This document shows, piece by piece, positions 4,742 through 37,027 of a stretch of DNA of 44,965 bases; the first letter of the stretch is position 1, and every line of letters starts with the position of its first letter. The notes under the pieces are model-generated. The model did not search any database and was not told the DNA's origin. It was given only the letters and a program-made list of their open reading frames with translations. A program made the position numbers and the translations under genes. This DNA is from Deltaproteobacteria bacterium (lineage in GTDB: Bacteria; Desulfobacterota; Binatia; Binatales; Binataceae). Location: positions 1-44,965 of the forward strand of contig PLDK01000045.1 of NCBI GenBank assembly GCA_003135135.1. The letters run 5' to 3'.

Positions 4742-5223
4742 CGATTGCCCCAGTGCGAGCGGCGCTTGATCAGGACCGTGCGCTCGCCTTCGAAGACGAT
4801 CGTCCCGTCATGCTTGGTTCCCCAATGCTTGAAGCGGACGATGCCGGCGTCGTCTCGATCGGCGTCGCGTTTTTCCAGAACTTCGCTATAGGCGTACAGC
4901 GTGTCGCCGTGAAAGACCGGCGAGGTGAACCTGATCCCCGTCAGGCCGAGTTCGGCGAGTGCGTTTTCGCCCGTGTCCTGCGTCGCCAGCCCGATGCACA
5001 CCGAGCCGGTCACCAGCCCGAAGACCAGCCGTTGGCCCAATGGCGTCGCCTTCATGCGATGCTCGTTGTAGTGGCTGTCGGCGGTGTTCAGCACGAGCTT
5101 GGTGAGCATCTGATTTTCAATCTCGCCGACGGTGGTGCCGCGTGCGTGACGCAATTTCGCGCCGACTTCGAAGTCTTCGAAGTAATTGCCGACGCCGGTC
5201 AGCTTCGAGATCGATGCGCTCAC
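4738..5223 (-). CDS. MaoC-like hot-dog hydratase (subunit 1)
   Basis: 161 residues from GTG 5223, which overlaps the acyl-CoA dehydrogenase stop as GTGA; its own TGA overlaps the CaiB TTG start. Single hot-dog domain: NYFEDFEVG at the N-terminus, NTADSHYNE (Asp49, His51, Asn53) in the hydratase helix region, and IRFTSPVFHGDTLYAYSEV typical of MaoC dehydratases. The layout resembles the short hydratases encoded beside CitE-like lyases, such as the mycobacterial and itaconate-operon enzymes (from memory of the family). It probably adds water to a 2-enoyl-CoA. A longer reading frame to 5439 exists but only shadows the dehydrogenase gene. A second MaoC gene at the operon head may supply a partner subunit. 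Confidence 0.85.
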   Translation of the reverse strand: MSASISKLTGVGNYFEDFEVGAKLRHARGTTVGEIENQMLTKLVLNTADSHYNEHRMKATPLGQRLVFGLVTGSVCIGLATQDTGENALAELGLTGIRFTSPVFHGDTLYAYSEVLEKRDADRDDAGIVRFKHWGTKHDGTIVFEGERTVLIKRRSHWGNR

Positions 5224-34912: not shown

Positions 34913-35551
34913 ATGATCGGCGCCCAATTCCTGACCTGGTTGCATCTGTGCGCGATGGCGGCATACGTCGGCGCGCAGTTCGCGGTCATCTATATGCTCA
35001 TTCCGGCCGCGCAGACCGCGCCCAACGAGGCGGCCCGGCGCTCGAGCCTGATCGCCGGGTTCAAGTTCTACAACCCGTTCACGATCGCGGTGCTGGGAAT
35101 TATTGTGATTAGCGGCGCGACGCGCCTGACGGACTTGAAAGCGTCGATGAAGTTCGACTACTTCGCGCGGATTGGTTCGGTGCTCGAGCTGAAGCTGGCG
35201 CTCGCCTTCGTTCTCATCTTCATCCAGACCTACATCACGTTCGGACTGGCATTCAGAATCGGCCGGCAGGAAGAGGTGGCCGCACACGGCGACGGCGAGG
35301 CGTTTACCGTCGAACAGCTGAACTCGATGCTGCGGCGAATTCGCGCGATGGCGTGGTTCACGATCGTGCTGGCGGCCGCTATCATCTGGGTGGCGCTCAC
35401 GATGGTATCGCGGACGCTGGATGAGCCCGCCACCGCATCGCGCATTTCCGCGCGCGCCGAATCCGGCCGCGCAACCCGGGCATCTGGGCGCCCGGTCACG
35501 TTTGCGACGCTGGCCAGGCGCGACACTGAAAAAACGGAAAACATGATTTAG
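34913..35551 (+). CDS. CopD/DUF2269-like four-helix membrane protein
   Basis: 212 residues. Four predicted transmembrane helices: LTWLHLCAMAAYVGAQFAVIYML, NPFTIAVLGIIVISGATRL, LKLALAFVLIFIQTYITFGLAF and AWFTIVLAAAIIWVALTMV. The His in the first helix (WLHL) and the YNPFT loop recall CopD/HemJ-like integral proteins, some of which bind haem or copper. The last 45 residues are charged and low in complexity. The stop overlaps the stop of the convergent small gene by four bases (35548-35551). Function unknown. Confidence 0.7.
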   Translation: MIGAQFLTWLHLCAMAAYVGAQFAVIYMLIPAAQTAPNEAARRSSLIAGFKFYNPFTIAVLGIIVISGATRLTDLKASMKFDYFARIGSVLELKLALAFVLIFIQTYITFGLAFRIGRQEEVAAHGDGEAFTVEQLNSMLRRIRAMAWFTIVLAAAIIWVALTMVSRTLDEPATASRISARAESGRATRASGRPVTFATLARRDTEKTENMI

Positions 35552-35727
35552 TGCGCCAGTGCGAGCAGCGAACCCACGAGGTACACGACGGTGATGATGC
35601 CGAAAATCGCGCCCGGGATTTCGTTCAGCATGTTGTACTGTGCGAGCCGAGTCACATCGCTGACTGCTGCCGCCTGGTTGATCGATGCGATCCCCGTGAG
35701 CCTTGGTTCAGTGGTGGTTGCGTTCAT
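35548..35727 (-). CDS. Small single-pass membrane protein, paralogue B (59 aa)
   Basis: Start ATG 35727 with CGGGAGGA seven bases upstream, stop TAA at 35548-35550. The protein starts MNATTTEPRLTGIASINQAA, then has a polar linker RLAQYNMLNEIPG and a C-terminal hydrophobic helix AIFGIITVVYLVGSLLALAH. It is 31 of 58 positions identical, without gaps, to the neighbouring gene 34 bases upstream, so the two arose by tandem duplication. Identical ribosome-binding site and spacing argue that both are translated. No family recognised. No cleavable signal; the helix is C-terminal. Too short for common ORF cut-offs. Confidence 0.75.
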   Translation of the reverse strand: MNATTTEPRLTGIASINQAAAVSDVTRLAQYNMLNEIPGAIFGIITVVYLVGSLLALAH

Positions 35728-35761
35728 TTCAAATTCCTCCCGTAAATTCTGTCGGACGATT

Positions 35762-35938
35762 TCAGGCCAATCCCAGCAGCGAGCTGACGACGTATCCGAG
35801 CGTGATCAAACCGAACACCACGCCGGGCAGTTCGCTGAGCAGACTGTTCTGCGCGAACCGGATTCCGGTGGTGGATTCCGCCGCTTCGTTGGCATTGGCG
35901 ATTCCCGCGATTCTCGCTTCGTTGGTCGTTGCGTTCAT
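35762..35938 (-). CDS. Small single-pass membrane protein, paralogue A (58 aa)
   Basis: Start ATG 35938 with GGGAGGA seven bases upstream, stop TGA at 35762-35764. N-terminus MNATTNEARIAGIANANEAA, linker RFAQNSLLSELPG, C-terminal helix VVFGLITLGYVVSSLLGLA. Residues shared with paralogue B include the start MNATT, GIA, AA, R-x-AQ, E-x-PG, FG-x-IT, Y-x-V and SLL-x-LA. The predicted start point of a near-consensus sigma-54 promoter lies 28 bases upstream. Plausible roles are a membrane stress peptide, a hydrophobic toxin or a bacteriocin-like precursor; none is proven. Confidence 0.8.
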   Translation of the reverse strand: MNATTNEARIAGIANANEAAESTTGIRFAQNSLLSELPGVVFGLITLGYVVSSLLGLA

Positions 35939-35976
35939 GTTCAGGTCCTCCCGTATTCAGTGACTGACGTGGGTAA

Positions 35977-35992
35977 AGCAACCTATGTGCCA
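35977..35992 (-). promoter_or_regulatory. Sigma-54 (-24/-12) promoter
   Basis: Read on the minus strand: TGGCAC, five bases (ATAGG), then TTGCT. This matches the RpoN consensus with exact GG-to-GC spacing. It places the start of transcription near 35966, 28 bases before ATG 35938. It drives the small-protein pair and would need an AAA+ enhancer-binding protein, not encoded in this window. Confidence 0.8.
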
Positions 35993-36027: not shown

Positions 36028-36160
36028 ACCGACCGTCTGCCGCCAGCGGTCGGTAGGGCCTAAAAACTCATTAAACTCAATGGTTTATTGAAAATCGCAA
36101 AATGCGAGTACGAATTGATAGATTTTCGAGATTCGCGGTAAATTTCCTTTTTCGCGAATC
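36028..36160. promoter_or_regulatory. Three inverted repeats upstream of the sigma-54 promoter (possible enhancer sites)
   Basis: ACCGACCG (36028-36035) with CGGTCGGT (36047-36054); TCGCA (36095-36099) with TGCGA (36103-36107); GATTCGCG (36130-36137) with CGCGAATC (36153-36160). They lie about 60 to 195 bases upstream of the predicted start, the usual range for sigma-54 activators. Otherwise the 315-base gap (35939-36253) is A/T-rich with no gene. Confidence 0.45.
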
Positions 36161-36253
36161 AGCGCATTCGGCTAGCTGCACCTATCTCGCTGCGGATCGG
36201 CTTGCGCGTGGCCCCTCTTTGATCATTCTCAGTGCATCTGCAAAAGTGGCGTG

Positions 36254-37027
36254 ATGGCGAGTGAAATGGATCAGGACGCGCCCCAGTCCAACGGCAAGGC
36301 AACCGGAGGATTGAAGCCGCCTACCGCGTTGCTCGCCGCCGCCGACGCCGCCACGCCCGGCGCACATCCGCATTTCATCCGCAGCCTGGCGCTGCGCTTC
36401 GCGGAGGAGGCGATCTTACTGATAGCCGTCGTCGGCGCGATCGCGATGGGACTCGGGATCACCTCTTACTTCACCGAGCATCGCTATGTGCTCGCATACC
36501 TGGCGGCATACGCGGGCTTTCGCTTTGCCGATTTGATTGTGCGCGAAGACGCCGAGGACAGTTCCGCACACGAAGAACTCAGCCAGCGGATCGCCGTGCA
36601 GCTTCCAATCCTCGTGACGTTTGCGGCGGCGCCGTTCGAGCGCACTTACATTTACGGCGGCTCAGCGCCCGCATGGGTCAGCGCGCTGGGACTGCTGATT
36701 GCATTGTGGGGGATGTGGCTGGCGCTTGGCGCGCGCGTTCAGCTCGGATTTTTTACTTCGGGCAGGACGGCCGAGCATCCGGTGCTCGTCAAGAGTGGCT
36801 TTTATCGTTACGTCAGGCATCCGATCTACGCGGGTAGATATTTGGTAACGTTCGGATGGCCGCTCATCTACGGAGCGCCGATCACCGCGGTCCTGACGCT
36901 GATCGTCGGGGGCGTTTTCGCGCATCGACGAATGAAGTCCGAAGAGGCCGGGATGCGCGCGCAATTCGGCGAAGAGTACGACGCCTACATACGCGGGACG
37001 GACGCGTTGGTTCCATCGATCTGGTAA
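36254..37027 (+). CDS. Isoprenylcysteine carboxyl methyltransferase (ICMT/PEMT)-family membrane protein
   Basis: 257 residues from ATG 36254 (a GTG directly before it is an alternative). Several helices (ILLIAVVGAIAMGLGITSYF, LPILVTFAAAPFERTYIYGG, ALGLLIALWGMWLALGARVQLGFF) then the ICMT C-terminal signature: HPVLVKSGFYRYVRHPIYAGRYLVTFGWPL and EEAGMRAQFGEEYDAYI, which bind SAM and the lipid substrate. Such bacterial proteins methylate small lipophilic or isoprenoid acceptors, or are of unknown role. It diverges from the small-protein pair across the sigma-54 region. Confidence 0.82.
   Translation: MASEMDQDAPQSNGKATGGLKPPTALLAAADAATPGAHPHFIRSLALRFAEEAILLIAVVGAIAMGLGITSYFTEHRYVLAYLAAYAGFRFADLIVREDAEDSSAHEELSQRIAVQLPILVTFAAAPFERTYIYGGSAPAWVSALGLLIALWGMWLALGARVQLGFFTSGRTAEHPVLVKSGFYRYVRHPIYAGRYLVTFGWPLIYGAPITAVLTLIVGGVFAHRRMKSEEAGMRAQFGEEYDAYIRGTDALVPSIW

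Follow-up and report, generated by a model that had tools for sequence, protein, structure and literature searches.

Why would a bacterium keep two tiny paralogous membrane peptides behind a sigma-54 promoter, and which activator might call on them? The question is raised by a locus in a genome from the genus of Candidatus Binatus (Binataceae); the whole stretch of DNA that was analysed, here called the window, is 44,965 nt long. Two adjacent minus-strand genes encode peptides of 58 (gene 1, 35762-35938) and 59 amino acids (gene 2, 35548-35727). They are separated by 34 bp, and the 3' end of gene 2 overlaps a convergent open reading frame (34913-35551) by 4 bp. An initial sequence-only reading had described the two as paralogues, and pairwise alignment confirms this (31 of 58 positions identical, 53%; E 6.8e-14). 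As that reading also stated, the same ribosome binding site, GGGAGGA, can be read from the sequence at the same distance from each ATG (35946-35952 for gene 1 and 35735-35741 for gene 2, both on the minus strand). The N-terminal part of the gene 1 peptide is polar and gives way at about residue 38 to a hydrophobic helix. Kyte-Doolittle maxima over 19 residues are 2.11 and 2.42 for the two peptides, both starting at residue 40, in agreement with the C-terminal hydrophobic helix proposed for each. AlphaFold predicts a single helix with pLDDT block means of 92, 98 and 94 across residues 31-58 and of 59-78 N-terminal of it; with an overall mean pLDDT of 80 and a pTM of 0.43, the helix is well supported over the C-terminal half only.

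The pair belongs to a small and narrowly distributed family. The same genome carries four copies: the two of the window and single ones at C38 and C3. In a profile search 15 of 41 Binataceae genomes yielded members, 50 in all, and a single-sequence search matched 15 of 58 relatives, with no match in the 22 relatives outside Binataceae. A phylum-wide draw of 395 genomes yielded three matches, all from the window's genus and none outside Binataceae. The peptide family has so far been seen only in one family of uncultured bacteria. Gene 1 is under purifying selection: its dN/dS is 0.12 and 0.12 against the two closest orthologues, and the value near 1 that had been named as counting against the peptides was not found for it. 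Over 14 comparisons the ratio ranges from 0.11 to 0.99, the highest values, from C38-type copies, being based on few changes. In an alignment of 21 of the 50 members, M1, A29, L34, E36, P38, T46, Y49, S53 and L57 are invariant and G39 and F42 come close; conservation falls on the half that forms the membrane helix, and the N-terminal half varies. GxxxG is a helix-packing motif, and the small residues 39 and 43, together with the polar residues 46, 49 and 53, suggest packing of the predicted helix. The MNATT start, put forward as a shared mark, is usual among members but not invariant (MAATT, MNTTT and others occur). The statement that no family could be recognised was upheld. Pfam returned no family at E ≤ 1 for either window peptide, and for the 21 members just four weak families, none of them a Psp family; nothing significant came from NCBIfam (best E 0.023) or PHROGs, and there was no match in the PDB. 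An LH1/LH2-like antenna or a Flp pilin was ruled out by the alignment, which has no conserved His and places the helix at the C-terminus, judged against the generally known features of those families.

On the minus strand at 35977-35992 lies a perfect sigma-54 (-24/-12) element, TGGCAC-N5-TTGCT (TGGCACATAGGTTGCT; 11/11), which starts 54 nt upstream of the gene 1 ATG. Sigma-54 transcripts usually start 11-12 nt from the GC of the -12 element (this rule, like the consensus, is general knowledge), and transcription would begin near 35966, 28 nt before the gene 1 ATG. In the 3.73-Mb genome the exact pattern TGGCAY-N5-TTGCT occurs at four sites, compared with three for the reversed control pattern, and two of the four stand upstream of peptide-family members, which goes beyond a chance occurrence; a relaxed pattern is mildly enriched (29 sites against 18 for its reverse). 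Comparison across genomes bears out the promoter first read from the window alone. An element scoring at least 9/11, with GG and GC required and within 130 nt upstream, precedes 26 of the 50 members as against 52 of 4070 control windows, in which the real sites are included. It precedes first genes in five genera, lying at -51 to -60 in 25 cases and at -126 in the remaining one (G004:C69). All 26 fall among the 38 members that are not tandem second genes, and none among the 12 that are. Gene 2 of the window likewise has no element of its own, and we read the pair as sharing one promoter. The other 12 members without an element are mostly divergent, some with other N-termini, and include the C3 copy of the same genome (G000:C3:1224-1403).

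Which activator would work at this promoter? Upstream of the peptide promoters, candidate activator sites recur at about -115, -165 and -200. In the window all three are on the minus strand. The first, TCGCATTTTGCGA (36095-36107, at -115), is of the TCGCA-N3-TGCGA type; with at most one mismatch it is found at -112 to -115 in 13 of 20 first-gene promoters, which makes it the most regular site, and four C38-type loci have TTTGCGANTCGCAAA at -69 in its place. Its exact form occurs at two places only in the genome, the window and the inside of a ribonucleotide reductase gene. The second consists of inverted half-sites, TTCGC...GCGAA (36132-36158, -166 to -140). The third is a TGCA array with a 14-bp period (CGCAGCGAGATAGG TGCAGCTAGCCGAA TGCG; 36160-36197). 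Between these sites and the promoter there is also an inverted repeat, ACCGACCG...CGGTCGGT (36028-36054), whose form is absent in aligned relatives. The genome has 17 matches to PF00158, taken as the mark of enhancer-binding proteins, 14 of them across the whole domain. A regulator adjoining the peptides was sought and rejected, as none of these 14 genes lies beside a copy; the nearest is about 13 kb from the C38 copy, and the C3 copy has a contig end 1.2 kb away. An autoregulated activator with TCGCA sites was rejected as well, since no exact pattern tried was present in the fetched loci of the 14 genes.

The TGCA array has a counterpart elsewhere in the genome. A sigma-54 response regulator, L057 (G000:C11:87517-88968), unlinked to the peptide genes, is encoded in an operon with the order histidine kinase with a 2TM domain, L057, in some genomes a PEMT/ICMT-like methyltransferase (four of eight genomes read), and PspA. 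Pfam was run on this operon and on PspA from three other genomes; the PspA of the own-genome operon matches PF04012 at E 8.6e-21. A sigma-54 element of the operon's own, with a score of 9 or more, is present in seven of the eight genomes, and TGCA repeats with a 14-bp period can be seen by eye upstream in all eight. A position weight matrix trained on these eight arrays, aligned by hand, gives the window array 12.7, a score reached by about 1 in 300 shuffles (p 0.003); the promoter of the C38 paralogue scores just 2.1 (p 0.22). Among 20 peptide promoters, 13 score at least 8, nine at least 10 and six at least 12, whereas 55, 22 and 14 of 3496 same-size control windows, still containing peptide promoters and real sites, reach these levels; seven peptide promoters stay below 8. 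The 13 hits are located at -191 to -217 (ten) or -173 to -176 (three). The share at 8 or above is eight of 13 once close relatives are dropped and 16 of 26 over all element-bearing promoters. Independently of the matrix, the spacing from YGCA to TGCR peaks at 14 bp (12 of 20 peptide promoters and seven of seven operon promoters), a second peak at 7 bp being due to the TCGCA palindrome. The resemblance of the putative array to that of the PspA operon is far above background. An array score of 8 or more is reached at four of the 29 relaxed sigma-54 sites in the genome: that of the PspA operon itself (36.4, a training member), that of the window (12.7), one at C41 that precedes a small RNA (8.9) and one at C11 (8.2). 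The last (L033/L208, G000:C11:152081-152096, minus strand) combines an exact match to the sigma-54 pattern with a TGCA array at -80 and lies about 105 nt upstream of a 288-aa open reading frame that has a HELGH motif by eye and no Pfam family; it is a possible further member of the regulon.

The distribution of L057 is consistent with a link to the peptides. Of the 15 peptide-bearing genomes, 14 encode it with at least 78% identity, G003 only in the form of a fragment at the edge of a contig, and the one without it is G030, which is 87% complete; it also occurs in seven of 21 peptide-less Binataceae, at 73-81% identity. These counts are confounded by ancestry, which may account for part of the co-occurrence. 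When part of the matching activator regions was compared between three peptide-bearing and three peptide-less genomes, L057 was the one among those compared with orthologues at 77% or more in the first and at 44% or less in the second. PspC (PF04024) was found in none of six genomes by a search that was positive in seven of 14 control genomes, so the usual membrane partner of the operon's PspA seems to be missing. The peptides themselves have no Psp family match and their genes are unlinked to pspA. Divergent from the pair, and with an upstream region in common with it, is a gene for a PEMT/ICMT-like membrane methyltransferase (36251-37027, plus strand); the convergent frame on the same strand encodes a 212-aa protein with no Pfam family above the cut-off. 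Both are syntenic in related loci. A PEMT/ICMT-like gene is thus seen beside the window pair and also in the kinase/regulator/PspA operon (L195:10000-10482). A 450-aa neighbour in other genera, considered as a regulator, proved to be a GH1 glycosidase.

The shared promoter features also lead to a small RNA. After the C41 sigma-54 site a transcript of about 115 nt is predicted (L255, G000:C41, ~4818-4932, plus strand), with a strong terminator hairpin, C-rich loops and no recognisable open reading frame, beside a tRNA cluster on the opposite strand. Conservation of this DNA extends to 23 of 40 Binataceae (homologues L256-L277). A sigma-54 pattern, looser for part of the loci, directly precedes it in 22 of the 23, and the remaining one, L268, has a weaker element by eye. 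RNAalifold over 22 loci predicts helices that appear to be conserved, including a few changes on both sides of a pair, and Rfam searches with two and three loci returned no match. Qrr (LuxO), CrcZ (CbrB) and GlmY are sigma-54-dependent small RNAs in which, as we would expect here, a sigma-54 promoter and an enhancer-binding activator drive a structured trans-acting RNA; the Binataceae RNA differs in lacking an Rfam match and in its C-rich loops. Literature searches, most of them narrow, brought up nothing that we recognised as the L057 operon, the peptide family or this RNA, which is no proof of absence. All 13 small-RNA copies from peptide-bearing genomes contain UCCUCCC, which is perfectly complementary to the GGGAGGA of the peptide genes, as against none of ten from peptide-less genomes, a split that a single ancestral change could also explain. 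GGGAGG stands before a possible start in one of 65 other genes compared with three of the four own peptide copies. Energy-based pairing with the peptide leaders was set aside as not discriminating: the window leaders give -14.0 and -16.4, and at their best start 15 of the 65 other genes reach -14 and nine reach -16. An array score of at least 8 is seen before the small RNA in four of 13 peptide-bearing genomes and in none of the nine peptide-less genomes scored. Among the six of these nine that were checked for L057, it is missing from G007, G019, G026 and G035 and present in G011 and G031; as the array is absent before the RNA in G011 and G031, the presence of L057 does not bring the array along.

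This last pattern speaks for an alternative in which the pair belongs to a sigma-54 regulon that answers to a different signal (nitrogen, carbon or redox would be examples), with one of the 13 remaining enhancer-binding proteins acting through the TCGCA/TTCGC sites; the TGCA array would then be auxiliary or convergent, and the peptides would serve a membrane enzyme or transporter as small subunits or as modulators. TCGCA-type half-sites precede the small RNA in peptide-bearing and peptide-less genomes alike, their palindrome is the most regular site of the peptide promoters, and it is common for small membrane proteins to tune enzymes. Against it, the array is like that of the PspA operon to a degree well beyond background, and the steady neighbours of the pair, a PEMT-like gene and an uncharacterised protein, offer no obvious partner enzyme complex. 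We regard this alternative as possible but doubtful. A hydrophobic toxin, of type I or another toxin-antitoxin system, or a lysis peptide is a distinctly unlikely identity. The small size and hydrophobicity of the peptides would suit it, as would the complementarity of the C-rich loop to the ribosome binding sites, which is reminiscent of antisense control, and single members out of 21 match the RebB 'killing trait' (E 0.11) and SPP1 holin (E 0.18) families very weakly. However, a family search of the direct and next window neighbours and of ten related-locus proteins returned none with a role as antitoxin, in immunity or in export, the small RNA is encoded away from the pair and binds the window leaders with an unremarkable duplex energy, and the best PHROGs match is from one member to a family whose function is unknown (E 0.0048). 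A secreted bacteriocin-like or signalling precursor, which tandem short paralogues with a variable N-terminal half and the best weak Pfam match (Colicin_V production protein, a family of membrane proteins and not of bacteriocins; two of 21 members, E 0.0058) might recall, is barely credible, as the conserved half is a membrane helix and not a mature core behind a cleavage site, and no export or processing gene is among the searched neighbours. The original proposal of an inducible small membrane-peptide system therefore survives in part: conservation of the sigma-54 promoter speaks for it and the PspA-operon-like array for its membrane stress option, while partial searches found nothing in favour of its toxin and bacteriocin options.

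Based on these observations, we propose that the pair are unlinked members of a phage-shock-like regulon that act at the inner membrane, with L057 as the likeliest activator, a tentative reading in which our confidence falls a little short of even. Two single-pass membrane micropeptides would be made once an enhancer-binding protein activates sigma-54 RNA polymerase at their common promoter. That protein would most likely be L057, the response regulator of the phage-shock-like operon elsewhere in the genome; we infer that it binds the array and that membrane stress is the signal. The operon promoters contain no TCGCA-N3-TGCGA within one mismatch, stray half-sites aside, and so one more regulator is needed; we would take L057 to act through the TGCA array and a different protein through the TCGCA sites, the latter probably also binding the TTCGC half-sites. 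Inserted through their C-terminal helix, the peptides would work at the inner membrane under stress, most plausibly by recruiting PspA or tuning it, much as LiaI does with LiaH or as PspB and PspG do in enterobacteria. As this PspA appears to be without a PspC partner, micropeptides made on induction and carrying a membrane helix suggest themselves for docking it, although the role of PspA partner is a guess from analogy. The pair is probably part of the lineage's membrane-protection response. The fullest version is an undescribed regulon for envelope stress in Binataceae, where the PspA-linked two-component system with its sigma-54 regulator, together with a second activator, would induce both the C-rich small RNA and micropeptides standing in for PspB, PspC and PspG, and where the RNA, carrying the complement of the ribosome binding site, may restrain the peptides in a feed-forward loop; this version is unlikely.

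This model recalls known systems without coinciding with any of them. The enterobacterial phage-shock proteins PspG and PspB are likewise short proteins of the membrane that depend on sigma-54 and on an activator of the NtrC type, and pspG, described in the cited account as an orphan target of PspF (PMC9239133), is as unlinked as the peptide genes are to the L057 operon. In contrast, the peptides have no Psp family match, PspC is absent in the six genomes, and the activator here would be a response regulator with its own histidine kinase and not PspF. In Bacillus subtilis, LiaRS places a PspA homologue and a membrane protein under two-component control, and LiaI is reported to anchor LiaH at the membrane (PMC9239133). 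LiaR, however, is presented as a receiver-HTH protein and no sigma-54 activator (PMC11237479), and LiaI is encoded with LiaH in one operon. The passages of PMC11237479 cited here portray a kinase, a regulator and PspA together as a recurring theme across diverse phyla, with regulators of the receiver-HTH kind; the regulator of the Binataceae operon, L057, has a sigma-54 AAA+ domain instead and may reach unlinked micropeptides and a small RNA.

What does this mean for the biology of Binataceae? An uncultured family gains a candidate membrane-protection regulon, and a new micropeptide family is defined together with a promoter code that can be traced from genome to genome. The shared promoter code also pointed to a conserved small RNA without an Rfam match. 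The arrangement suggests that, where PspC is absent, small membrane proteins encoded away from the operon may be wired to PspA.
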